From Methanosphaerula palustris E1-9c (lineage in GTDB: Archaea; Halobacteriota; Methanomicrobia; Methanomicrobiales; Methanospirillaceae): a stretch of 64,000 nucleotides of DNA. A program made the position numbers and the translations under genes. Below, one piece after another: positions 3,853-57,602 of the stretch (the stretch's first letter is position 1; every line of letters begins with the position of its first letter). Where the stretch lies: contig NC_011832.1 of the NCBI RefSeq assembly GCF_000021965.1, positions 2,397,242 through 2,461,241 of the forward strand. The letters run 5' to 3'. The notes under the pieces were generated by a model. That model did no database searches. It saw only the letters and a program-made list of their open reading frames with translations, and was not told where the DNA came from.

Positions 3853-6103
3853 AGCCCTGCTGGCAGCCCTGAAGGGTTCGGAACGCCACAGCAGGCGAAT
3901 TGCTGCAGTTAGGTCTATCGAGGGGCGGGAGGCTGCGTATGGCTCCCTGGAACGTCCGCTCTCCTTGCGCCTCGAAAGGATGCTCGACGAGCGGGATATC
4001 CGCCTGTACACCCACCAGTGCGCGGCTATCGAGGAATGCAGACTGGGGGGAAGTCTGATCCTCACCACCCCTACGGCCAGCGGCAAGACCCTTGGGTTTT
4101 CGCTGCCGGTGCTTGAGCGACTCGAAACAGAGCCGGCTGCCACCGCTCTCTTCCTCTACCCGACCAAGGCGTTGGCCAGGGACCAGATGCGAGTGCTCCT
4201 CGATCTGGAGGCTGCCAGTGGTATCCGGATAGGACCGGCGGTCTACGACGGGGACACGCCCCAGGGAATGCGGCCGCAGATCCGCAACCAGTCCAGGATT
4301 GTAATCATGAATCCGTATGAACTGCACCAGGTCCTTCCCTGGCATTATAAGTGGTCCCGGTTCCTGGCAGGACTGCAGTTCATCGTTATCGATGAGGCGC
4401 ACCGGTATCGAGGGGTCTTCGGCTCCTCGATCGCCCTGCTGCTTCGGCGGCTGGAACGGATCTGCCGGGGGTACCGGCGGACCCCGCAGTACCTGCTCTC
4501 GACCGCAACATTGGCGAACCCGGAGGAGTTCGGGAAGATGCTGACCGGCCATCCCTGTCGATTGATCGAGAGGAACGGCGCGCCGCAACAGAAACGGCAC
4601 GTAATCCTGTACAACCCATATATACCCGGGGAGACAGGGTCGACGATCACGGCCGCCGCCGAGGTGATGCTCACCTCGGTCAGACATGACCTGCAGACCC
4701 TCTGCTTTGCCCAGTCCAGGAAGACCGCAGAGGTGATCACCACAGTAGCGAAGGAGTACCTGCAGCAGGCCGGGGAGGTGGACCGATACGAACTGGCGGC
4801 CTACCGGGCCGGGTACCTGCCGTCCGAGCGGCGGGACCTCGAGAACCGGCTCCAGCAAGGTCAACTCCATGGGCTGACCACCACCTCCGCCCTAGAGGTC
4901 GGGATCGATATCGGCTCGCTCGATGCGGTGGTGCTCTGCGGGTATCCCGGCACGATGATCGCGACCTGGCAGCAGATTGGCAGGGCCGGCCGACGGGAGG
5001 TGCCGTCGGTCGCAACCGTCATCGCCCAGCAGGGACCGCTGGATCAGTATTACATGCATCACCCCGAGGCGTTCTTCGCCGCCCCGCACGAGCAGGCTAT
5101 CATAGACCTGGGAAACCCGGCGATCGTCTCAGGACAGCTCCTCTGCGCTGCTGCAGAACTGCCGCTGACTGACGGCGACCAGGATCTCTTCGGTCCGCTC
5201 TTCTCGCCGCTGACGACTGCACTCGTCAGAGAACGGCTGCTGGCAGAGACCGAGTCTGGCCTTGTCTATGCCGGAAGACAGCGGGCTACCGAGGCCGTCA
5301 AACTCGACGGGTTGAGCGGTGACATCTTCCGGGTGGTCGCTGGCGGCAGGGTGCTGGAGACCCTTGACCGACACCAGGCCTACCGGGAGGCCTTCGCCGG
5401 AGCCATCCTCCTCCACCAGGGGGAGACTTTCGCAGTGACGGCGATGGAACCGGAGAACCTGGATATTACCGCCGAACCGGTCGACGTCGAATACACCACA
5501 AAGCCGCTCCATGCCACCGAGATCACCGCCGGCACCGTCGCAACCACCACTGTCCGCCCAGGACTTACCATCGAGACCGGGGAGGTGACCGTGCAGGAGA
5601 CCTTCACCGGTTACCAGATCAGACAGTACGGCGAGGTGCTCGCGACCCATCACCTCGGCCTGCCACCCCTTACCTTTCAGACCCGAGGGGTCTCGCTGAA
5701 GTTCTCTGCGACGCTGCTCCAAGACCTGACTGTAGCCGGCCTCGACCCGGCCGGTGCGCTTCATGGGGCAGAACACGCCCTGATCGCAGTGATGCCGGTC
5801 CACCTGCTCTGCGATCGGCAGGACATCGGCGGAGTCTCGATGGTGATGGCACCGGAGACCGGCGGGCCGCTGATCTGTATCTATGACGGCTGCCCGGGCG
5901 GGGCAGGATTGACAGCGAGGGTGCCGTCCCTGCTCGGGAAGTTGGCGGCAATGGCCGGGGACCTGGTCACCTCCTGCCCCTGTACCGACGGCTGCCCGGC
6001 CTGCATCCACTCCCCTAAATGCGGAAACGACAACTGTCCGCTCGACAAGCAGGGGACGATCATGGTCCTTGCGAAGATCCAGGCGGCACTCTCAACACCC
6101 TGA
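3842..6103 (+). CDS. DEAH-box helicase with DUF1998 zinc-binding C-terminus, YprA/MrfA-like
   Basis: 753 residues. Superfamily 2 helicase motifs are complete: Walker A TPTASGKT (about 76-83), DEAH in [20 protein letters not shown] (motif III) and QQIGRAGRR (motif VI). The C-terminal region carries a four-cysteine cluster ([17 protein letters not shown]), typical of DUF1998 helicases such as Bacillus MrfA, where cysteines bind zinc. It is expected to be a 3'-5' DNA translocase working with the overlapping exonuclease. Its stop is about 70 bases before the likely DP2 start, so repair and replication genes may share an operon. Confidence 0.92.
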
Positions 6104-6171
6104 ATCCAAGTCCAATAACCAGAGGTCTCACACCCTCGCTCTTATATCAGGTGTGCGACCATCTGATCCTG

Positions 6172-9100
6172 ATGTTGCAGGTCTCCCCGATGATGGCAGC
6201 CTATCATAAGAGGCTCCAGGATGGCCTCTACGAGGCGATCAGTGTTGCAGAGCAAGCGAGGGCTCTGGGGATCGACCCCAAGACCAGGGTCGAGATCCCG
6301 ATAGCCAATGACTTGGCCGACCGGGTCGAAGCGTTGCTCGGAATCACAGGCGTCGCGGCACGGATTCGGGAACTCGAACAGACGATGTCCCGAGAGGAGG
6401 CTTCCCTCCGGATCGGCGACGACTTCGTCGCCAAGCGCTTTGGAGAGACGACTCGGGAGGAGATCCTCGATCATGCGATCAGGACCGGGATGGCCCTGCT
6501 GACCGAAGGGGTGGTGGCGGCCCCCACCGAGGGAATCGGGAATATCTGTCTTGGCAGGAACGATGACGGAACCGATTACCTAAAGATCTATTATGCCGGC
6601 CCGATCCGGAGCGCCGGCGGAACAGCACAGGCGCTCTCGGTGCTGGTCGGCGACTATGTCAGGCAGCAACTTGGGATCGGGAGGTTCATCCCGCGCCCCG
6701 AGGAGGTCGAACGGTACATCGAGGAGATCAAGCAGTATAACTCGATCATGTCGCTCCAGTACCTGCCGAGCGAGAAGGAGATCAGAACGATCGTCTCCAA
6801 CTGTCCGGTCTGCATCGATGGTGAGGCAACCGAGCAGGAGGAGGTCTCAGGGTACCGGAACTTGGAACGGGTCGAGACGAACGTTGTCCGGGGCGGGATG
6901 GCGCTGGTCGTCGCCGAAGGGATGGCCCTCAAGGCCCCGAAGATCCAGAAGAACGTCCGGAAGATGAAGATGGAGGGCTGGGAATGGCTCGACGAACTGA
7001 TCAGCGGGACGGTGAAGACTGGTGACGACGACGATGAGATCGGGGTTAAACCCAAGGACAAATACATCCGCGACCTGATCGGCGGTCGGCCGGTCTTCTC
7101 ATATCCTATGCGTAAAGGGGGTTTCCGGTTGCGGTATGGCAGGGCACGGAACACCGGGTTCGCGGCGGCCGGCCTCCACCCGGCGACGATGCACCTACTC
7201 GGCGATTTTCTGGCGGTCGGTACCCAGATGAAGGTCGAACGACCAGGCAAGGCCGCGGGGATCGTGCCGGTGGATACCATCGAGGGGCCGACGGTCAGGC
7301 TGGTGAACGGGGACGTCCTCCGGGTCGATGATCTGGCGCTCGCCCACCAGATCTCCGGGTCGGTGGAGCGGATCCTCGATGTCGGTGAGATGCTTGTCTC
7401 GTACGGTGAGTTTCTGGAGAACAACCATCTGCTGGTACCCTGCGGATACTGCGATGAGTGGTGGCAGTTGGAGAGCAACGGAGCAAGCCGCCCGACGGAC
7501 GAGACCGAGGCGATCCTGCTGGCCCTCGACGGGGGATACCTCCATCCAGAGTATACACAGATGTGGGACGACATCACGCCAGAACAACTGATTACTCTCT
7601 CAGACTGGGTCAGCCGGACCGGGGCGGTCACCAGAGCCGGGCTCGTCCTTCCCTGCGAAGCGGAAGGGAAAGCGATCCTCGAGGAGTTGCTGGTTCCACA
7701 CACAGTCAGGGACGACCGGATCATCATCTCCCGTCATCTGGTGCTGATAGCAGCCCTCGGGCTCGACCTGCACCTGCAGAGGCGAGGAGTCTGGGCGGAT
7801 GCGCCGACCGACGGCCATAATGCATTGTCGCTCGCCTGCCACCTCGCCGGGTTTGCGATGCGGCAGAAGGGAGGGACGCGGATCGGGGGTCGGATGGGCA
7901 GGCCCGGCAAGTCCAAGGCGCGGGAGATGAAGCCTCCGCCCCACGCACTCTTCCCGGTCGGCGAGGCCGGCGGCGCCCGTCGTTCATTCCAGGAGGCCTC
8001 GACCTACGCTCCGGAACGAAACCGGGACGGTGGAGTGATCACTGCAGAGGTTGGGGAGCGGCGGTGCCCCGCATGCAAGACGATCACCTACAAGAACCGA
8101 TGCACCTGCGGGGCTCACACTGAACCTGTCTTCCGGTGCCCGAAGTGCAACATAGAGATCAACGCGGACAGGTGCCCCCGGTGCGATGGCGGGACGGTCT
8201 GCACCCAGACGGTCTCGATCAATGTTAAGAACGACTATGCTACGGTCCTTGAGGAACTCGGCCTCAGGACTGGGATGGTCCCGCTCGTCAAGGGGGTAAA
8301 GGGACTGATCTCACGGGAGCGGGTCGTCGAAGACCTGGCCAAGGGGGTCCTCCGGGCCCGGCACAGCCTCTATGTCTTCAAGGACGGGACGGTCAGGTAC
8401 GATATGATCGATCTTCCCCTGACCCATATCCGGACCGACGAGTGCGGAGTGACCCCCGAACAACTGGTCGCCCTCGGGTACACCCAGGATGTCTACGGGG
8501 TGCCGCTGACCGACCCGACGCAGGTGGTGGAACTCCGGCCTCAGGACATCCTGGTCTCAGAGAAGTGTGCCGTCTGGCTGCTGGAGGTGACGGCTTTCAT
8601 CGACGATCTGCTGGAGAAGGTCTACCACCTCCCCCGATTCTACAATGTCACGTCCCGGGCCGACCTGATCGGCCACCTGGTAATAGGACTTGCACCGCAC
8701 ACCAGTGCCGGAGTACTGGCCAGGCTGGTCGGGTTCACAAAAGCGAATGTCGGCTATGCCCACCCGTTCTTCCATGCTGCGAAGAGGCGGAACTGTTTCT
8801 ATGGAGATACGGTCATCGAGGTCTATGATTATCGCTCCTGGACGAAGGTGCCGATCCGGCAGTTCGTCCTCGAGAACTTTGACCTTTCAAATCCAGGGCT
8901 CGACCATTTCGGCACATTCTACTCTGATCCAAAGAGGTCGTTTCTGACCCGATCGGTAGATACGCAGGGAACGATGCATCTCAAGAAGATCACCTCGGTT
9001 TCGGTGCACCGGGCCCCGCCCGCCCTGATCCGGTTCGGGACCTCCCGGGGAAAGGTAGTCTCGGTCACCCCCGAGCATGCGATGCTGATCTGGGACGTGG

Positions 9101-14006: not shown

Positions 14007-15788
14007 ATGATCACCGGCTACTCAGTCTTCCTCTTCGCGGCAGCCACCGTCACGGGCCTTCTCGCCGCCTATACTGGATGGTACCGCCGTCGGGAGATCA
14101 GCAGTGCCACCGGGATCCTCTTGCTCCTCATCGCAATTACCCTGTACATCGGGGGAGCCGGAATGGAACTAGCCAGTAGTGATCTAGCCGAGATCCTCTT
14201 CTGGGTTAAGGTTGAGTATCTAGGGATCGCATCGATCCCGTCCCTGCTGTTGATCGGGATGTTCGGATACGTCAACCGGACCCGGCACCTCTCCCTTCCA
14301 CTCCTCGCCCTCCTCTCGGTCATCCCGGTGATCACCTGCGCCCTGGTATTGACCCAGAGCCCCCTCTTCTACCAGACGGTCGGCATCGATACCTCAGCAC
14401 CGTTTCCACGGCTGGTCTTCACCCCGGGACCGGGGTATTATCTCAACGCATGTTATCAGATTATTGCGCTGTTTACTGGAACGATACTGCTCGTGCGGGC
14501 TTACCGCAGAAGCACCCAACCACTGTACAGAAAGCAGATTCAGATCCTAGGGATCGGCATAACCGCTCCATTCATCGCCTCCATCCTGTACATCTCAGGG
14601 CTCTCCCCGATCCCGCACCTGGACCTAGCCCCATTCGCCCTCGTCATCACTGCAACGGCGTTCACCATCGGGATCTTCTCATACCAGCTCTTCGACCTGG
14701 TCCCAATCGCCCACTCGGTCATCCTCCAGAAGATTCCGGTCGGGGTGATGGTCGTCGACGACCTGGAACGAGTCACCGAGGTGAACCCGGCCGCTGAAGC
14801 GGCGCTCGGCCTCGGAACTGGGGAAGGGATTGGTCAGCCAGTTGCATTGCTGACCGAGCGGTTCCCGGAGTTGGCCGGGATCATCAGGGACGCCCGTCCC
14901 GGGATTAAGAAGGAGGTCCGGTATGGGGATCGGCATTACACCTTCGAGGTGGTCCGCCTCGGAGAAGAGGGGGATCGGCCCGCGGGATCGGTGCTGCTCA
15001 TCCGGGATATCAGTCCCTGGCGACTAGCCGAAGAGGAACTCCTTCGACGGACCGACGAACTTAAGGTGGCCAACCAGCAACTGGCGCTCATATCAGCGAT
15101 CACCAGGCACGACATCAGTAACCAGCTGGTAGTGATCGACGGGTACTTGGACCTGCTCCTCGAGGACGGGATGCCGGCAGACCAGGCCAAGACAGTGGAA
15201 CAGGTCCTGGACGCCACCGATCGGGTCAGAGAGATGGTCACCTTCATGCGCGACTACCAGGCGATCGGCACTTCAGCCCCGGTCTGGACTGATCTTCGGA
15301 ACCTCCCCGAGAGAGCGGCGACAGAGGTGGCTCTCAGGGGGGTGCAGATCAACAATCTCCTCCCTGCCATCGAGGTGCTCGCCGACCCGCTGATCGAGAA
15401 GGTGCTCGCCACCCTCTTTGAGAATGCGATCCGGCATGGGAAGACGGTGACGCAGATCCTCCTCTCCGCCAGGACCGATCAGGCCGGCCTCACGATCGTC
15501 TGCGAGGACGACGGGGCTGGGGTGAATGAAGACAAAAAGGAGCGAATCTTTGAACGTGGATACGGCAGCAACACCGGCCTCGGCCTCTTCCTGGCCCGCG
15601 AGATCCTCGCGATCACCGGGATGACGATCACAGAGACTGGGATCCCCGGCGTCGGGGCACGGTTCGAGATCCAGGTCCCCCCCGGACGGTACAGAACCCT
15701 GGATCAAGCAAAAAAAGACCATAAAGAGGAGCAAGAGCAAATGCTGCCCTCCGGCGCCGGGTCAGATGGTCCAGACACCCCTGCCTGA
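14007..15788 (+). CDS. 7TM sensor histidine kinase with PAS domain, copy 3
   Basis: 593 residues with the same order as copy 2: 7TM region 1-230, PAS about 235-345, HisKA with TRHDISNQL, and HATPase_c with ENAIRHGK, EDDGAGV and GLGLFLAREI. The main differences are scattered substitutions and a hydrophilic C-terminal tail of about 27 residues (AKKDHKEEQEQ...) beyond the ATPase domain. The stop is 36 bases before the tRNA-Leu gene. The signal and partner regulator are unknown; possibly it overlaps functionally with copy 2. Confidence 0.93.
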   Translation: MITGYSVFLFAAATVTGLLAAYTGWYRRREISSATGILLLLIAITLYIGGAGMELASSDLAEILFWVKVEYLGIASIPSLLLIGMFGYVNRTRHLSLPLLALLSVIPVITCALVLTQSPLFYQTVGIDTSAPFPRLVFTPGPGYYLNACYQIIALFTGTILLVRAYRRSTQPLYRKQIQILGIGITAPFIASILYISGLSPIPHLDLAPFALVITATAFTIGIFSYQLFDLVPIAHSVILQKIPVGVMVVDDLERVTEVNPAAEAALGLGTGEGIGQPVALLTERFPELAGIIRDARPGIKKEVRYGDRHYTFEVVRLGEEGDRPAGSVLLIRDISPWRLAEEELLRRTDELKVANQQLALISAITRHDISNQLVVIDGYLDLLLEDGMPADQAKTVEQVLDATDRVREMVTFMRDYQAIGTSAPVWTDLRNLPERAATEVALRGVQINNLLPAIEVLADPLIEKVLATLFENAIRHGKTVTQILLSARTDQAGLTIVCEDDGAGVNEDKKERIFERGYGSNTGLGLFLAREILAITGMTITETGIPGVGARFEIQVPPGRYRTLDQAKKDHKEEQEQMLPSGAGSDGPDTPA

Positions 15789-15823
15789 AGATTTAACAGA
15801 GATCACCGGTAATAAGTACAGAC

Positions 15824-15906
15824 GCGGGGATAACCAAGAGGCCAAAGGTGGGCGCCTCAAGAGCGTCTCTCGCAGGAGTTCAAGGGTTCGAATCCCTTTC
15901 CCCGCA
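15824..15906 (+). tRNA. tRNA-Leu (anticodon CAA)
   Basis: 83 nt without encoded CCA. Acceptor GCGGGGA pairs with TCCCCGC, discriminator A. The D stem ACC/GGT closes a loop with GG, and the anticodon stem GGCGC/GCGTC carries loop CTCAAGA with anticodon CAA at 15860-15862. A long variable arm (CTC/GAG) marks a class II tRNA, and the T arm AAGGG-TTCGAAT-CCCTT is perfect. It decodes UUG. ATTTAAC about 30 bases upstream is a plausible TATA-like box, and a T-rich tract follows. Confidence 0.95.
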
Positions 15907-15935
15907 TCTGCGATCACACCGGTGATACCAGCACG

Positions 15936-15952
15936 TTCTTTTTTATCTTTTT
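15936..15952 (+). terminator. T-rich terminator after tRNA-Leu
   Basis: TTCTTTTTTATCTTTTT begins 30 bases past the tRNA 3' end. Archaeal terminators are typically T-rich tracts without a required hairpin, so this probably ends the kinase-tRNA transcript. Confidence 0.55.
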
Positions 15953-16052
15953 CAAGCGAGTGAAAACCGGGTTTATCGAGGCTGGATTAATAGCCTGATC
16001 CGACTCCCAATAATCTCATAATGCTACTTCCCAGACTAGAGAAAACCATACA

Positions 16053-17370
16053 TAGTAGTTCGCTAATTTTGTGAAACGTCTAAATATGCAGTTGATCATA
16101 AATTTATCAATAGAATAGAAAGGTCTATATCCTTTGCAGGCTGTCCCTTATGGTCTCACAAACCGGGAGCAGACCCTGCACAGATGTTTCTTGCGTTCGT
16201 CCGAAAGAATGTTGTGATCTGGCTGTAGCCGCTCTGAACTGTCATGTGAATATTCCTTTTCAGGGATCCCTGACCCAAACTACTATCTTTAGTACACTCG
16301 TTGAGATGGCCGTTGAGCAACAGTCTATCCATTCGATCAGCTCGCTTCTGGAGAAGAGTCCATGTGAAACTTCACTTCGGTATCATCTTGCCAAACTCCA
16401 CATAGATGACCTCGAAGCTACAAACTTGGCGATTCTAACTCATTCGATCACATCGGTCCTGATACCTGGAAAGGCATACAACGTTCGCCATTGATTACAC
16501 CAATGACCCGTATTATGGGACGGTTTCATCAGAAAACGAGGGATATGTCATTCAAAGTCGGCTCAAGAAATCAACAAACGAGTTCTATTCCTACGTTACG
16601 ATTTATGCGATCACCCAGGACCGCCAGGTAACCCTGGCGGTCTACCCTGTGACACAGGGTACATCCAAGGTCGCGTATATCATCCGCTGTCTGGATGCAA
16701 TCACGACAGCGGGTCTGAGGATCCAAGCACTCTATCTTGATCGGGAATTCTATGCACGAAAGGTAATCGACTTCCTGACAACCGTTCAGATCCCATTTAT
16801 CATCCCGGTCCGAAAACACAGTCGAGCGATGAAACAACCCCTGAACAGAACAAGATCACGGTTTGGGGAGTATATTATGCGTGGAAAACCCTCGCTTCGT
16901 CTGAAGATTGCGATAAATGTGAAGTATGCAAACGGAAAAAGAGTGAAACATGGGGTCAAGAACTTTGAATATGTGGTACATGGCATATCCTGGGATCCCC
17001 AGCGGATTCATAAGACCTACCGATCTAGGTTTGCGATCGAGTCGTCATACCGGATGCGGAACCTTGTCAAACCCAGAACCTCAACCCGCAATCCGGTGAT
17101 CCAATATCTCTTTGCTATTATCTCGTTTCTGATAAAAAATCCCTGGATAGCAGTGCTTTGGACACGATTCTCACCTGTGAAACAAGGTCCAGGAACCATT
17201 GAGATAGGCACGTTCAGATTTGATCAGTTCAAGTTGTTTGTCTGGGAGGCAGTAAGAGTAAACCTAAAGGTCGTGATAAAAATTCCTGCCCTCAGAAATC
17301 CAGTATAACTGAAGAAGATTTGGAACGCTGATGAAAGAAAAAGACACGAAGGATAATTAGCTAAGTACTG
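16053..17370 (+). mobile_element. ISH3-like insertion sequence with degenerate transposase
   Basis: About 1318 bp. The left end (TAGTAGTTCGCTAATTTT, 16053-16070) is an imperfect inverted match of the right end (ATAATTAGCTAAGTACTG, 17353-17370). The element is flanked by the 5-bp direct repeat ATACA at 16048-16052 and 17371-17375, the target duplication size I associate with ISH3 elements. The internal gene encodes a DDE transposase broken by a frameshift. The conserved flanking duplication suggests the insertion is not very old. Ends were found by eye and could be off by one or two bases. Confidence 0.75.
16150..17308 (+). pseudogene. ISH3-like DDE transposase, frameshifted
   Basis: The first part (16150 to about 16482) reads SIHSISSLLEKSPCETSLRYHL in one frame. 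From about 16484 the protein continues one frame over (FAIDYTNDPYYG ... to the stop at 17308). One extra base near 16483, between AAC and TTC, explains the break. The DDE triad candidates are D in AIDYTND, D in LYLDREFYARK and E in RFAIESSYRM, as in the ISH3/IS4-type transposases of haloarchaea and methanogens. The element is probably not autonomous unless frameshifting is programmed, for which I see no clear slippery site. Confidence 0.85.
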
Positions 17371-50985: not shown

Positions 50986-51304
50986 GGTCACCCGCAAATG
51001 GTCTCAAAGCCTCTGCTGCCTGCGATGCTGTTTCAAAAGTGCTTATTCCGTTGGCATGGAGCGTAGCGGCGGTGATTATAATGATAAAAAACATGATGAC
51101 TTGAGAAAAAAAACATCCCCAACGATGGTATCCCTATCCATACCAGTAACATTTTGCTGTGTCACCACAGGTATTCCAACGCCTATATCCGAAACATTCC
51201 TATTAACGATCTCCTCTTCAACCTCCTCTGAAACCTGCCAAAAGAACAGATATAGGAGATCGTAGTGCCTAAGATTGACACAACAGTGAGCAGATAGTCT
51301 GCTG
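50986..51304. other. AT-rich spacer, no gene recognised
   Basis: Nothing supportable. The region lies between the IS5-like element and the NRAMP relic and has short frames only. Confidence 0.5.
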
Positions 51305-51818
51305 AAAACTGAATTTGATGGAGCACCGTGTTTTAACAATGATTCCCCAATCCAATTTAACAAAGAAGGTTTTCAGGATGTATGCAATCAATATCAGGGC
51401 CAGATACTTCAGAATTTTAGAATATGTTTTATAGGTTACAAAACCTCCAGGATAATAATGAATCCTGTCATGAGCCATAGTCAGAAATGAAACAGCAATC
51501 TCAGCAGCATCTGCGCCGAAGTGGTCATCGCCGCCAGGTCTGCACCAATATTGATGGTATTGATAATCACCAGCAGAGAAACTGCTAAATATAACACTGG
51601 TTTTGAGTAATGATCGAGAATGACGCCGGCCAACCCTTTTCCAGTCACCATTTCGATACGGCCACACATCTGCGGGATAACAATTATAAATGGAAATGAA
51701 AATAATCACGCCCATAACTGACTGAACCAGAGCACTGCACCGATCTGGGAGTAGGTTCCAATGCCGGAAGGATCGTCATCAGCCGCACTGGTAATAAAAT
51801 CAGACCCCTATTTTTTTA
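51305..51818 (-). pseudogene. Relic of an NRAMP-type divalent metal transporter
   Basis: The minus strand reads ITSAADDDPSGIGTYSQIGAV followed by a stop after FSQLWA. The frame goes on with IVIPQMCGRIEMVTGKGLAG and VLYLAVSLLVIINTINIGADLAAM, then shifts frame near 51485 to FVTYKTYSKILKYLALILIAY. These are the TM1 DPSGI metal motif and following helices of NRAMP Mn2+/Fe2+ transporters. At most 40% of the family length remains. The rest is missing at the 3' side, perhaps deleted when the region was rearranged. Confidence 0.82.
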
Positions 51819-52072
51819 ATCAATGTTTTCAGGTATTTCAACATCAGGACAAACCATTTTTCCTCATCATCAATCTGCCAATCTCATCTCTTCTGGTGAG
51901 GGTTCATGGTGCCGGTCGTGATGTCATTGAATTGGATCAAGCAGAAGTACAGGGGGAAACGGCGTCATGTTCACTCCAGATATTCCGACCTGTCAGTTCT
52001 CACGTCGATCTTCGAGGGAACCACAGAATTGAATAGGAGGTTCGGAATCACTCAGAATAGGTACAAATGATT

Positions 52073-52080
52073 AAAAAAAA
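52073..52080 (-). terminator. T-tract terminator of the tungstate-binding gene
   Basis: Eight A on the plus strand (T8 on the minus strand) start 8 bases past the stop of the binding-protein gene at 52088. This fits an archaeal oligo-T terminator. Confidence 0.6.
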
Positions 52081-52087
52081 TAGTGGG

Positions 52088-53986
52088 TCAGGTGGTGCTG
52101 ACCAGCGACTTCAGTGAGTCCGGCACCGTGCCGGTCGCCGTCATCGGGGTCATGGGGGCCAACCCACTCTTGTTCAGAGCTGCTGCGCCCTGGTCAGAAG
52201 CGAGCGCCTTGATGAACGCGACACCCAGGTCTGGATGCGCAGCCCGGGTCGGGATCGTCAGTCCATAGACGATCGGGGTGGCAGGGATCAGTCCTGATGG
52301 GGTCTTCGCCTGCACCAAAGCGTAATCTTTGCTCATGCTCAGGTTTGCCAGCGAGATCTCATCTGGCAGCTCGATATACGGGAGCCCGGCGTCGACAGCG
52401 CTCGACCGGTAGACCAGGGCATAGTCGGCCTTACCGCTCGTAAGGAGGTCCAGGTAGGTCGGGCCGGTGGCGTTCGGAATCAACAGACCCTTGTTGTCCT
52501 GCTTCGGGTTCGTCAGGTCGATGGTGGTGTTGGCTCCGGTCTTGTTCACTGTGATCGCACTGTGATCACTGACGACCTTCTTGAAGAGGTCGGGGACCTT
52601 GTAATATGACTCGGCCAGGACCAGTGTCATGTAGGCACGGTAACCCCCTGGGTCAGAGGTCGGGTCACTGGTGACGAGTTTGACATTATCCTGACCCAGC
52701 ACCGAGTACCAGTTGTCCTTTGTGATGGTGGACGCACTGGTGCTGTTGTTGGTGTAGACGAGCACCATTGCGTTCCGCGCGAAGTTCAGGGTGAACGAGG
52801 CGTTGTCAGGGACCATCAAACGGGAGATCTGGTCGGCGTCAGCACTGGCGACGATGTCAGCCTTCTCGCCCATCTTGGTCACCTTCTCGATCATCGTGAT
52901 CGAGGAGCCACTGAAGAGTTCTACCTCAGCCCCAGTGGTGTCCTTCTCAAAGATCGACTTGACGGCCTTGAACGGGGTCGCCAGAGAGCCAGCTTGGAAG
53001 ACTATCGCTGGGGTGGTCGCATTCAGCGGGGCCGAGTTGTCGACCTTGAACGTCTTTGCCATCGTTGCATTCATCGGGGAGAAGAGCCCCTTGCCATACT
53101 TGTCCTTCCCATAGTCGGCGATCAATTGCTGGGTGGTGTTGTCGGTCAGGAACGTCGCGAGGGTGTTGGCGGCAGTAATGCTAGCCGTCGCATTGTTCTT
53201 CGGCACCACTGACATCACACTGTAGATGTTGAGTAGGCTATCCCCTTTGATGATCACCGGTATGAGAGTCAGGTTCCCCTTGTATGCGAGGAACGTCCCC
53301 TCATCGGTCAGGGTGTAGGCCTGCTTCTGGTCGGCCATCTGGAGGGTCTCACCCATTCCTTTGCCTGCCTCGACATACCAGTCCCCGGATTTCTCGATCT
53401 GGGTGGCATAGTCGAAGCCGGCGTTCTTCCAGATCTTCTTCTCTGCAGACTGGGTTCCGGACCCGTCACCGCGGGAGACGAAGGCGACATTGGCGGTGTT
53501 GTTTGCGCCGTCCGCTTTGAGCTTCTTAAATGCGTCCTCAGGCGAGAGCCCCTTGATCTGTGCCGGGTCGCTGGCAGGACCAACGATCTCGAAGTAGTTG
53601 TACGCAAACGAGCGCCGGTTGACACCGTTCCCGTTCTCCATGAAGGTCACCTCATCTGAAGGTGAATGGACCAGCAGCACATCAGCATCCCCACGCTGGG
53701 CTAGATCTATTGCCTTTCCAGTCCCCTGTGATGTGATCTTCAGGTGGGTATTGTACTGTTTTTCGTAGATCGGTGCAAGATAATCGAGGAGCCCGGTATC
53801 GTACAGGCTTGTCGTCGTCGCGACCAGCAGTTCCTTCACCGGAGTTGAGGCATTGGATGCACTGGTCACATTGGCTGCCGTACCATTGGCAGACGGTTGC
53901 TGGGTTGTCATGCATCCTGAAATGCAGAGACTGATCAGCAGCAGCACAACCAGAGCGATGCAACATGTGATGGTTCGTTCAGACAT
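52088..53986 (-). CDS. Fused tungstate/molybdate-binding lipoprotein (TupA-like plus WtpA-like)
   Basis: About 632 residues from MSERTITCC. A signal peptide ends in a lipobox (ISLCISGC), so the protein is probably a lipid-anchored receptor. Domain 1 (about 50-315) is TupA-like: ATTTSLYDTGLLDYL, SRGDGSGTQSAEKKI, GMGETLQMADQKQAY. Domain 2 (about 327-632) is WtpA/ModA-like: AIVFQAGSLATPF, ADIVASADADQI, FARNAMVLVYTNNS, SDPGGYRAYMTLVLAE, ADYALVYRSSAVDAGLPYIE. Each is the size of a complete binding protein. It is divergent from tupB/tupC, which should form the membrane part. I know TupA and WtpA as separate systems; a single fused chain is unusual. Confidence 0.88.
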   Translation of the reverse strand: MSERTITCCIALVVLLLISLCISGCMTTQQPSANGTAANVTSASNASTPVKELLVATTTSLYDTGLLDYLAPIYEKQYNTHLKITSQGTGKAIDLAQRGDADVLLVHSPSDEVTFMENGNGVNRRSFAYNYFEIVGPASDPAQIKGLSPEDAFKKLKADGANNTANVAFVSRGDGSGTQSAEKKIWKNAGFDYATQIEKSGDWYVEAGKGMGETLQMADQKQAYTLTDEGTFLAYKGNLTLIPVIIKGDSLLNIYSVMSVVPKNNATASITAANTLATFLTDNTTQQLIADYGKDKYGKGLFSPMNATMAKTFKVDNSAPLNATTPAIVFQAGSLATPFKAVKSIFEKDTTGAEVELFSGSSITMIEKVTKMGEKADIVASADADQISRLMVPDNASFTLNFARNAMVLVYTNNSTSASTITKDNWYSVLGQDNVKLVTSDPTSDPGGYRAYMTLVLAESYYKVPDLFKKVVSDHSAITVNKTGANTTIDLTNPKQDNKGLLIPNATGPTYLDLLTSGKADYALVYRSSAVDAGLPYIELPDEISLANLSMSKDYALVQAKTPSGLIPATPIVYGLTIPTRAAHPDLGVAFIKALASDQGAAALNKSGLAPMTPMTATGTVPDSLKSLVSTT

Positions 53987-54017
53987 AGATATTACCATCA
54001 ATTACCTCAACCGGCAT

Positions 54018-54028
54018 GTATTTATAGG
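54018..54028 (-). promoter_or_regulatory. TATA box candidate for the binding-lipoprotein gene
   Basis: On the minus strand CCTATAAATAC lies about 33 bases upstream of the MSERT start (53986), at the spacing expected for an archaeal TATA box with a very short leader. The 149-bp divergent spacer also contains AT-rich AAAAAAATTAATTACATT. Confidence 0.5.
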
Positions 54029-54135
54029 TTATACCAAAATTCAAAAAAATTAATTACATTCAATTGATAGACATCCTGAACTGACCTAAAGAGCATCATC
54101 ATTTATCTGGACAGCAGGCAAGAACAGTTGAGAAT

Positions 54136-54831
54136 ATGCAGGAGATCATAGACGGCATCGTCCAGGCAGGGGGGCTGATCCTCACCCTGAACCCAGACGT
54201 GATGGAGATAACCGGGCTGACCATCTCCATCTCGATCGTGGCCACGTTGATCGGGGCGGTGATCGCCGTTCCGCTTGGTGGCGTGATCGCCACGAACACC
54301 TTTTTTGGAAAGCGGGCCTTGATGCAGGTGATCCAGACACTGTACGCCGTACCGACCGTTACCATCGGGCTCCTCCTCTTCCTGCTCATCTCCCGGGCCG
54401 GCCCCCTGGGTCAGTTCAGGCTTCTCTTCACCCCTACCGGCATGGTGGTCGGGGACGTGCTGCTGATCCTCCCGATCGTCACCGGGATGACACTCTCAGC
54501 CCTCGCCAACGTGGACCGCGGAGTCCATGAGACCCTCGTCTCCCTCGGCGCGACCAGGCAACAACTCCTCTGGATGGTGATGAAGGAGGCACGATTTGCC
54601 ATCATGGCCGCCATCGCCCTCGGGTTCGGGCGAGCTATCTCCGAGGTTGGATGTGCCATCATGATCGGTGGCAACATCAGAGGATCAACCAGGGTGCTGA
54701 CGACTGCGATCAGCCTGGAGACCTCAATGGGGAACATCGGATTCTCGATCGCCCTGGGTGTGATCCTGCTGTTGATAGCGCTTGCCGTCAACCTCTTTGT
54801 CTCATATCTGCAGGGGGAGGGAAGCCTATGA
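54136..54831 (+). CDS. tupB: Tungstate ABC transporter permease
   Basis: 231 residues with five to six membrane segments. The permease loop that contacts the ATPase is ETLVSLGATRQQLLWMVMKEARF (EAA motif), followed by AIALGFGRAISEVGCAIMIGGN, which matches the TupB/TupA-type permease subfamily. It forms the membrane channel for WO4(2-). The gene overlaps the ATPase start by four bases (ATGA). The start at 54136 is about 25 bases after CATCATTTATCTGG, which may hold the TATA box. Confidence 0.92.
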   Translation: MQEIIDGIVQAGGLILTLNPDVMEITGLTISISIVATLIGAVIAVPLGGVIATNTFFGKRALMQVIQTLYAVPTVTIGLLLFLLISRAGPLGQFRLLFTPTGMVVGDVLLILPIVTGMTLSALANVDRGVHETLVSLGATRQQLLWMVMKEARFAIMAAIALGFGRAISEVGCAIMIGGNIRGSTRVLTTAISLETSMGNIGFSIALGVILLLIALAVNLFVSYLQGEGSL

Positions 54832-55910
54832 TCACCGGTACCTCCCTCTCCAAAACCTACGGTGACCGGACAGCATTGGATGAAATCTCGCTCTCGGTCC
54901 AAAAAGGAGAGATCGTCGGGATCATCGGACCGAGTGGGTCGGGCAAGTCCACGCTCCTTCGGCTCCTCGACCTGATCGAAACCCCGACCACCGGAACGAT
55001 CGCCCTCGACGGGGTGCCAGTGCCGACCGGGAGACACGGGCGTCTGCAGGTGATCAGGCAGATGGGGATGGTCTTTCAGCGGCCGGCGGTCTTCTCCGGG
55101 ACCGTCAGCGAGAACATCAGCGCCGGACTCCGGTTCCGGGGCGAAGAGAAGGAAGTGATCGACAAGGAGGTCAAGCGGATGCTCGGGTTGATCAGACTCG
55201 AAGGATACGGAGACCGGATCGCCTCGACCCTCTCGGGCGGGGAACTGCAGCGTGTCGCGATCGCCCGTGCTGCGGTGACCAGGCCTGTGGTTCTCTTCAT
55301 GGACGAGCCGACCGCCAACCTTGACCCGCATTCTACAGCCGTCATCGAGGACATGATCCACCACCTGGCTACAGAAGAGGAGACCACCATCCTGCTGGCC
55401 ACCCATGATATGGTGCAGGGGCAGCGGCTCTGCGATAGGATCGGAGTGATGATCGACGGCAGACTGGTCCAGACCGGAACCCCGGACGAGATCTTCTCCT
55501 CTCCTGCCACCCCCGCCGTCGCGACCTTCACCGGCATCGATAACCTGCTGAACGGATATATAGAAGCGGTCACCGATGGGATCGCCGACTTTGTGGTGGC
55601 CGGTCATCACCTGCAGGCCATCATCGTTTCCGACAGGTACCGAGGGCCGGCCATCCTCAGCATCCGGCCTGAAGAGGTGACGCTGACCTTCGATCAGGGA
55701 TCGGATGGAAGCGCACGCAACCAGATGAGCGGGACCATCAGCAGGATCCTTCCCCTCGGCCCGCTGGTCAGGGTCACCGTCGACTGTGATGCAGTACAGG
55801 TCACCGCCCTGATCACCAGGGCTTCCAATGAAGAGATGCACCTGACTGTGGGGAGGGTCGTCACGGCCAGGTTCAAGGCCAGTGCCGCGCACATCATTTT
55901 AGAACTATAG
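54828..55910 (+). CDS. tupC: Tungstate ABC transporter ATP-binding protein
   Basis: 360 residues from ATG 54828, overlapping the tupB stop. Walker A GPSGSGKST, Q-loop VFQRPAVF, signature LSGGELQRVAIARA, Walker B VVLFMDEPTANLDP and the switch His in LLATHD are all present. A C-terminal domain (about 235-360; RPEEVTLTF) resembles the TOBE/regulatory domains of molybdate and tungstate ATPases and may sense the oxyanion. It energises import by TupB. The gene is followed directly by the long spacer upstream of mcrB. Confidence 0.94.
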   Translation: MITGTSLSKTYGDRTALDEISLSVQKGEIVGIIGPSGSGKSTLLRLLDLIETPTTGTIALDGVPVPTGRHGRLQVIRQMGMVFQRPAVFSGTVSENISAGLRFRGEEKEVIDKEVKRMLGLIRLEGYGDRIASTLSGGELQRVAIARAAVTRPVVLFMDEPTANLDPHSTAVIEDMIHHLATEEETTILLATHDMVQGQRLCDRIGVMIDGRLVQTGTPDEIFSSPATPAVATFTGIDNLLNGYIEAVTDGIADFVVAGHHLQAIIVSDRYRGPAILSIRPEEVTLTFDQGSDGSARNQMSGTISRILPLGPLVRVTVDCDAVQVTALITRASNEEMHLTVGRVVTARFKASAAHIILEL

Positions 55911-56288
55911 ATCAGTGCGCTTCCAGATTTCCGCCCTGCCGAGCGGACCTTTCCGAAGCGCACAGTTTATTCGAAATATTTAAGATATAAAAATCCACTA
56001 AGTAATACTCTTATAAGAGTATTTCACACGCGGCATTTCTCTGAAACCTACAAATGTACCTATATTTGAATAGAACAGTTCGAATATTTATTATTTTAAT
56101 ATTAATATAATAGATGGACCTAGAGACAAAACGACATCCTTATATGAAGGGAATTAGAATAAATCCATGTTCCCATGAGGGGACGTGCAATTAGTGACAA
56201 TCATTCACACTCAGTGGACCTGTAGAGTGCCTTCCATTATTCAGTTACAGGAAAGAATTGAATCAGAACTTTGAAAGGGAGGAATATT
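55911..56288 (+). promoter_or_regulatory. AT-rich control region upstream of mcrB
   Basis: 378 bp without a gene. It contains several TATA-like stretches (ATATTTAAGATATAAAAAT about 55976-55994; TATTTATTATTTTAATATTAATATAAT about 56086-56112), a perfect 20-bp palindrome (56004-56023), and the repeated phrase TTCGAAATATTTA / TTCGAATATTTA at about 55970 and 56081. mcr is among the most expressed operons in methanogens, so a complex promoter with a long leader is plausible. Confidence 0.6.
56004..56023. promoter_or_regulatory. Perfect 20-bp palindrome, operator candidate
   Basis: AATACTCTTATAAGAGTATT is identical to its reverse complement. No T tract follows, so it is unlikely to be the tupC terminator alone. 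It is about 95 bases after tupC and 265 before mcrB. Confidence 0.55.
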
Positions 56289-57602
56289 ATGGCAAAATAC
56301 CAGGAAACAATTGACCTCTATGATGATGAGGGCAAACTGTTAAAGAGCGGGGTCAACCTCGAAAAGATCAGCCCCCTGGTCAACCCGGGGATCAAGAAGA
56401 TCATCGACCTGACCAAGCGCACGATCGCTGTCAACCTGAATGGTATTCAGGAAGGACTGAAATCCGGAAAACTCGGCGGTAAGGCCAACCAGATCCTCGG
56501 ACGCTCATTGAACTATGACATTGTCAAGGACCATGAAGCGATCACAGAGAGGATCAAGAAGATGATCGAGGTCGAAGAGGGCGATGACACCACGATCAGA
56601 ACCATCGGCAACGGCAAGATGCTGATGATAGAGGTCCCAAGCGCACGGCTGGCCTCTGCATCGACCTATGACGCGGCGATCACCTCCGTGGCATCAGCGA
56701 CCACCCTCGCACTGCTCGACCAGTACAACATCGGGATGTTCGACGCCTCGGTCGTCAAGGCAGCAGTCTGGGGAACCTATCCACAGACGATGGACATGCA
56801 GGGTGCAAATGTCGTCTCAATTCTATCCATCCCACAGAACAACGAAGGTCTCGGTTTCTCGCTTCGTAATGTTGCAGCAAACCAGTCTGTGATGATGACC
56901 CACCGGAACGCATTCCAGGGCGCAGCACTCGCATCCACCTTCGAACAAGCGGGAGAGTTCGAGATGGGTATGGCAATCGGCCCATTCGAGCGTGCACAGC
57001 TGCTGGGATTCGCATACCAGGGGCTCAACGCAAACAATATCGTCTACGACCTGGTCAAGAAGAACGGTGCAACAGGCACTGTTGGTACCGTCGTACAGTC
57101 GCTTGTCGAGCGGGCCCTTGAAGATAAGGTCATCACCCCAGGCAAGAAGGGCAAGAGTGGGTACATCTTCTATGACACCAAGGACCCGATGCTCTGGAAC
57201 GCCTATACCGCAGCAGGTACACTTGCAGCAACCATGGTCAACTGTGGTGCAGGACGGTTCGCACAGGCAGTATCTTCGACACTGCTGTACTTCAACGACC
57301 TGCTTGAGCATGAGACCGGTCTCCCAGGATGCGACTACGGTCGTGTAATGGGTGTAGCCGTCGGTTTCTCATTCTTCAGCCACTCGATCTACGGTGGTGG
57401 CGGTCCAGGTATCTTCAACGGGAACCACGTCGTGACCAGACACGCAGCCGGATTCGGTATGCCCTGTATCGTCTCTGCATGTGCACTTGATGCGGGAACT
57501 CAGATGTTCACCCCAGAAGGCACCGCAAAGATCTTCGAGGACACCTATGGGCAGCTGCCTGAGTTCAAGACCCCGATGCAGACCATTGCAAAGAGCATCT
57601 GA
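56289..57602 (+). CDS. mcrB: Methyl-coenzyme M reductase beta subunit
   Basis: 437 residues from MAKYQETIDLYDDEG; GGGAGG lies 8 bases upstream, so ATG 56289 is preferred to the in-frame start at 56271. The sequence is clearly McrB (LGRSLNYDIVKDHEAI, FDASVVKAAVWGTYPQTMDM, HSIYGGGGPGIFNGNH). With McrA and McrG it forms the (alpha-beta-gamma)2 enzyme that makes methane from methyl-CoM and coenzyme B at coenzyme F430. It is the first gene of mcrBDCGA, with codon use biased as in highly expressed genes. Confidence 0.98.
   Translation: MAKYQETIDLYDDEGKLLKSGVNLEKISPLVNPGIKKIIDLTKRTIAVNLNGIQEGLKSGKLGGKANQILGRSLNYDIVKDHEAITERIKKMIEVEEGDDTTIRTIGNGKMLMIEVPSARLASASTYDAAITSVASATTLALLDQYNIGMFDASVVKAAVWGTYPQTMDMQGANVVSILSIPQNNEGLGFSLRNVAANQSVMMTHRNAFQGAALASTFEQAGEFEMGMAIGPFERAQLLGFAYQGLNANNIVYDLVKKNGATGTVGTVVQSLVERALEDKVITPGKKGKSGYIFYDTKDPMLWNAYTAAGTLAATMVNCGAGRFAQAVSSTLLYFNDLLEHETGLPGCDYGRVMGVAVGFSFFSHSIYGGGGPGIFNGNHVVTRHAAGFGMPCIVSACALDAGTQMFTPEGTAKIFEDTYGQLPEFKTPMQTIAKSI

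Follow-up and report, generated by a model that had tools for sequence, protein, structure and literature searches.

The window, the whole stretch of 64,000 nucleotides of a wetland methanogen's DNA that was analyzed, carries on its minus strand one gene in which a TupA-type and a WtpA-type receptor are joined in a single predicted lipoprotein, with tupB and tupC running divergently from it. The features of the locus are as follows.

52086..52103, minus strand: hairpin resembling a terminator where the fused gene ends, with CACTATTTTT after it; a pattern match at chance frequency
52088..53986, minus strand: fused TupA-WtpA lipoprotein gene, 632 aa from the ATG at 53986 or 636 aa from the ATG at 53998
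52097..53005, minus strand: WtpA domain, residues 328-630 (NF003196, TIGR03730, PF13531; AlphaFold2 model)
53006..53074, minus strand: interdomain linker of ~23 residues (305-327), from the domain limits
53075..53842, minus strand: TupA domain, residues 49-304 (NF041772, PF12849; 3lr1/5my5)
53807..53818, minus strand: TTTS oxyanion motif of the TupA half, residues 57-60 (residues named in PMC5517513)
53912..53986, minus strand: signal peptide and lipobox LCISGC with predicted lipidated Cys25, from sequence
54004..54028, minus strand: candidate archaeal TATA box and ribosome site of the fused gene, read from sequence (TATA-like CCTATAAATAC at 54028-54018, GAGGT at 54008-54004)
54136..54831, plus strand: tupB, permease, divergent (NF038017 231 bits, NF041773 TupB 172 bits, versus WtpB 40 bits)
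54828..55910, plus strand: tupC, ATPase with a C-terminal TOBE domain (PF00005, PF03459)

The frame from 52088 to 53986 is uninterrupted, with 632 codons open from the ATG at 53986. Since GAGGT lies upstream of the ATG at 53998 at a 5-nt spacing, this codon is at least equal to the one at 53986; the start is ambiguous, and 53998 may be the true one. The initial annotation had described two different, complete receptors in series behind one lipobox, and we found the open reading frame, LCISGC and both halves where it had placed them. A lipobox-like motif was present in 27 of the 29 full-length fused proteins described below. A search of the host genome (one contig of 2,922,917 bases) with the fused protein gave no second locus at E ≤ 0.001. 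A DDE transposase (PF01609; 49990-50985, plus strand) lies ~1.1 kb past the end of the gene, and the interval between the two (51000-52080) contains no convincing gene. On the other side, the tup operon directly adjoins mcrB (methyl-coenzyme M reductase; at 56271), both in the window (54828-56300) and in genus g15. In g15, repeated CCAA/TTGG-type elements occupy the region between the divergent fused gene and tupB (L043-L048), and these are weakly echoed in the window's intergenic region at 53987-54135 (CAATTGATAGACATCC), a candidate operator.

Profile searches, a check that the initial annotation had proposed, placed the two halves in different families, TupA for the N-terminal half and WtpA for the C-terminal half. 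Residues 43-304 have TupA NF041772 as their best NCBIfam match (model positions 7-260; 190.6 bits, E 3e-56), which falls under the whole-protein equivalog cut-off of 400 bits; on its profile scores, the N-terminal half is classed as a TupA-type domain rather than a TupA equivalog. Its Pfam match is PBP_like_2 (PF12849) and its PDB matches are TupA of Geobacter and Desulfovibrio (3lr1, 5my5). For residues 324-630, the best NCBIfam match is WtpA NF003196 (267 bits, E 2e-79; the cut-off of 355 is not reached), and residues 328-595 pass the WtpA equivalog model TIGR03730 with 244.4 bits versus a cut-off of 242.75. Here the Pfam match is SBP_bac_11 (PF13531) and the PDB matches are archaeal ModA/WtpA (2onk, 3k6u, 3cfz). 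We rejected the possibility that both halves belong to one family, given that their Pfam, NCBIfam, and PDB matches all differ. Structure prediction, also proposed there, yielded a complete two-lobed ModA/WtpA fold for the C-terminal half with a mean pLDDT of 84, and the ten best PDB fold matches of this model were all archaeal ModA/WtpA (TM 0.80-0.89). The TupA half was modeled from one sequence, and the resulting model is unusable (pLDDT 38). The residues proposed to hold the oxyanion in TupA are TTTS, a His, Arg118, Thr124, and Asp170 (PMC5517513); equivalents of all of them are present in the window's TupA half and, with the exception of one His, are invariant across the 29 fused proteins.

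A survey of other genomes, a further check suggested in the initial annotation, recovered the full-length frame in 28 genomes besides the window. Counting the window, 29 of the class's 232 genomes have it, and they all belong to eight genera (g1, g2, g7, g8, g10, g12, g15, and g17) of the window's family; fragments at contig edges add G215 and, from a second family, G004 and G005. A missed frameshift or stop hiding two genes was rejected, since the same full-length frame is open throughout these 29 genomes, eight genera of one archaeal family. Likewise, the chance that a sequencing or assembly artefact joined two genes is practically nil, and this explanation is already refuted by the recurrence of the frame in 29 genomes, two of which, G000 and G140, are single contigs. 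A single-protein scan of genome contigs found only bacterial relatives of WtpA, its peptide patterns being too specific.

Gene order around the fusion varies among carriers. In 18 of the 29, tupB-tupC directly adjoin the fused gene, and in G225 they lie 4 kb off; the other carriers, namely those of g10, g17, and g2 and a single g12 genome, showed no adjacent tupBC, some of them being on short contigs. The fused gene and tupBC are divergent and beside mcrB in the window and in g15, and co-directional elsewhere. Other families of the order have separate adjacent genes in the order tupA-tupA-tupB-tupC-wtpA-wtpB-wtpC (L121, L125, L126). These clusters resemble the fused locus in bringing tupA, tupB, tupC, and wtpA side by side and differ from it in that the genes are separate and WtpB and WtpC are present; they probably represent the ancestral state of the fusion. 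In a FastTree phylogeny of WtpA, 32 fused halves form one clade with a support of 1.0, sister to canonical Methanomicrobiales WtpA, and because of this single clade the fusion probably arose once, in or before the window's family. A lone TupA is kept beside the fusion in three genomes (G146, G160, and G178), and lone and fused forms are intermixed in the TupA tree, which therefore points to duplication and loss after the fusion. We also observed a third group of WtpA-like receptors that is widespread in the order, marked by RDGS at the Glu218 region and by FEYRS (L057:11393-14392, L129, L130, L131:14802-15782, L132, L133), with a dedicated permease and ATPase wherever these are visible in the locus.

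Fusions in the opposite order were found in G245, a genome of another class of the phylum (L162). One (15055-17277) encodes a WtpA-TupA protein of 741 codons beside tupBC, and the other (6048-8186) a WtpA-ModA protein of 713 codons beside a Mod-type permease and ATPase (modBC); both carry a proline-rich C-terminal stalk and a PGF-type anchor. Other members of the genus of G245 encode only TupA (G270, G298) or only WtpA (G263), and their leaders or C-terminal anchors are similar. The two WtpA parts of G245 are 99.25% identical in DNA over 1071 bases, consistent with either recent module shuffling or recombination, or with misassembly of the draft genome. Because of this near-identity, recombination and misassembly have to be excluded before G245 is called convergence. 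We set it aside as proof, coming as it does from one draft genome, and use it as support only.

To assess whether both halves are maintained, we calculated pairwise dN/dS by the Nei-Gojobori method for each half. Outside the window lineage, the ratio in 11 of 12 pairs was 0.02-0.15 in the TupA half and 0.04-0.20 in the WtpA half, and one g15 pair gave 0.33 and 0.39, respectively. Comparison of the window with g15 gave 0.23-0.33 for the TupA half and 0.43-0.51 for the WtpA half. These ratios indicate purifying selection on both halves. The window shares 48-50% identity with g15 in the WtpA half versus 63-69% in the TupA half, indicating that in this lineage the WtpA half evolves faster than the TupA half. 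The window lineage sits on a long branch in the WtpA tree. In G126 (L071:2-1477), an internal deletion has removed the second lobe of the WtpA half while the frame and C terminus are kept; since this lobe is gone, the WtpA half appears to be dispensable in some circumstances.

We then turned to the metal site, for which Asp153 and Glu218 are what we take to be the A. fulgidus WtpA numbering; a single offset of 28 puts both on acidic residues. In WtpA, two carboxylates hold tungstate, and mutating the Asp abolishes tungstate selectivity (PMC10221389). The corresponding positions in the window, all on the minus strand, are as follows.

52652..52654, minus strand: Asp445, kept, equivalent of A. 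fulgidus Asp153, the W-coordinating selectivity residue (by alignment; role from PMC10221389)
52463..52465, minus strand: Gly508, replacing A. fulgidus Glu218, the second W-coordinating carboxylate, which is lost
52412..52414, minus strand: Val525, at a position occupied by Glu in all 36 canonical Methanomicrobiales WtpA and in 21 of 32 fused proteins

All 32 fused WtpA halves have Asp153 and the same Ser, Ser, and Tyr in the pocket. At the Glu218 position, the same halves have Gly (23), Asp (5), Glu (1), or another residue (3). Canonical Methanomicrobiales WtpA also lack Glu218, with Ser or Ala there in 36 of 36, and all 36 have Glu at position 235, which is Ile in A. fulgidus. Glu235 is kept in 21 of the 32 fused halves and lost in g1 (the window, Val), g15 (Thr), and g2 and g7 (Gly). 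Among unfused proteins, Ile or Gln occupies position 235 (AF_0094 numbering) in those WtpA that have Glu218, and every sampled Methanomicrobiales WtpA that lacks Glu218 has Glu there. This pattern could reflect a carboxylate swap in the metal site. With Gly in place of Glu218 and no Glu at 235, the window's WtpA half has no second carboxylate and so lacks the pair of metal-coordinating carboxylates for six-coordinate tungstate. The changed metal-ligand residues make a different binding chemistry likely for the C-terminal half; and because Glu218 and Glu235 are both lost, leaving one carboxylate, the window's half probably binds in a more ModA-like manner.

The fused protein can be compared with three known systems. 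It resembles TupA of the TupABC importer (NF041772; 3lr1, 5my5) in the fold family of its N-terminal half, in the TTTS/His/Arg/Thr/Asp pocket, and in the neighboring tupB and tupC, which adjoin the fused gene as in TupABC, and differs from it in having a second, C-terminal receptor domain and in scoring below the NCBIfam equivalog cut-off. With WtpA of WtpABC (2onk, 3cij, 3k6x, 3cfz) it shares the fold of its C-terminal half, Asp153, and the Ser/Ser/Tyr pocket, whereas the fused half has no Glu218, no signal peptide of its own, and no WtpB partner in the window genome. A parallel in architecture is GlnPQ of Lactococcus, in which two tandem receptors, joined by a linker of 14 residues, bind independently of each other and supply a single transporter (PMC8025302). 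Both proteins have two receptors in series; different specificity and one shared transporter have been shown for GlnPQ (PMC8025302) and are proposed here. Unlike the fused protein, which joins two oxyanion families on a separate lipoprotein, GlnPQ has two amino-acid receptors of one structural sub-cluster that are part of the permease chain. Tandem receptors are thus already known, and what is new here is the combination of two families and its placement on a separate lipoprotein. Mod, Wtp, and Tup are handled as distinct systems in a large survey of Mo/W transport, in whose consulted passages no receptor fusion was noticed (PMC6147048). The initial annotation knew of no described example, and we too found no earlier description of a fused TupA/WtpA in the open-access literature that was searched.

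The initial annotation had stated that only TupB and TupC are present, divergently. This stands in that they are the sole Tup/Wtp permease and ATPase, but the genome also contains two further ModA-ModB systems, both above the ModA and ModB cut-offs. Since the host has these, a need for molybdate does not readily account for the fusion in this genome. The neighboring permease matches the TupB model NF041773 below its cut-off of 320, and the best NCBIfam match of tupC is WtpC (247 bits, under cut-off). No WtpB-type permease was matched at E ≤ 1e-60 in the window genome, and a genome-wide search for a separate wtpABC found none. Across the 29 carriers, 15 have no WtpB-type permease at this threshold, including the window and all g8 genomes, and the other 14 have a WtpB-like permease somewhere in the genome. 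In G140 (one contig, 98% complete), the matches to the ModB model are limited to the tupB next to the fused gene and a two-domain permease of 666 aa, and the SBP_bac_11 model finds the fusion and one protein adjoining the 666-aa permease. As these searches yielded no separate ModA and, other than its tupB, no candidate for WtpB or ModB, G140 seems to import Mo/W solely through the fusion and TupBC. In addition, a lone wtpA comes after tupA-tupB-tupC in G048 (one contig, no fusion; L124:1379-5386), and the genome lacks a WtpB-type permease, which makes G048 a natural unfused test case of WtpA working with TupBC. Together, G140 and G048 suggest that WtpA can work with TupBC.

Based on these observations, we propose that the fused lipoprotein would be the receptor subunit of a Tup-type ABC importer with two receptors in series, the TupA domain next to the lipid anchor and the WtpA-derived domain at the end of the chain. 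Each domain would close on an oxyanion (tungstate, possibly molybdate), and both would dock in turn on the TupB permease, with TupC supplying the power. The tether would keep two receptors over one permease and so widen the range of affinity or selectivity. It is plausible that one permease accepts both receptors and that these differ in affinity or preference; we infer the binding by both halves, their docking on TupB, and the preference of each. We give a two-receptor subunit that feeds TupBC, with both domains binding and docking on TupB, a probability of roughly 0.6. Several points speak against it, namely the loss of Glu218 in nearly all fused halves and of an alternative Glu in the window, the faster evolution of the WtpA half in the window lineage and the missing lobe in G126, and, lastly, the absence of directly adjacent tupBC in g10 and g17 and the two Mod systems of the window genome.

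Some of these points would also fit a WtpA half that never docks on TupB and instead captures or buffers oxyanion at the cell surface for the TupA half, or only reshapes or stabilizes the receptor. WtpA normally docks on WtpB, and the TupB found here is far from WtpB (40 bits, versus 172 bits for TupB); the altered ligand residues and the partial deletion in G126 point the same way. However, the Ser, Ser, Asp, and Tyr of the pocket do not vary among 32 halves and purifying selection acts on the entire half, and we consider this explanation unlikely, if a serious one. A WtpA half that serves another permease, Mod or Wtp-like, so that the fusion merely co-expresses and co-anchors two receptors, would find partners in the two Mod permeases of the window genome and in the WtpB-like permease of 14 of the 29 carriers. 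Against it, 15 carriers lack a WtpB-like permease at E ≤ 1e-60, and in G140 tupB is the only ModB or WtpB candidate; it seems to us improbable. Lastly, the long branch and the loss of both second carboxylates in the window lineage could mean that, in this species, the WtpA half has stopped binding metal and persists as a sensor or a relic. Its dN/dS of ~0.4-0.5 even in the window comparison, its intact frame and fold, and the lack of any attached signaling domain make this highly improbable.

In ABC importers, a receptor and its permease are generally regarded as a matched pair. With a conserved natural fusion of two different oxyanion receptors, in genomes that lack the cognate permease of one of them, it can be tested directly whether a single permease reads two receptor families and how tungstate and molybdate are discriminated. 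Such genomes would be mis-scored for the Wtp system by automated annotation with separate counts of tupA and wtpA. In the broadest form, which we put forward tentatively and at somewhat less than even odds, TupBC would take its ligand from two receptor families in one lipoprotein, so that a cell without a Wtp permease, and sometimes without a Mod permease, would keep Wtp binding chemistry, and WtpA would have been fused to another receptor more than once, as in G245.
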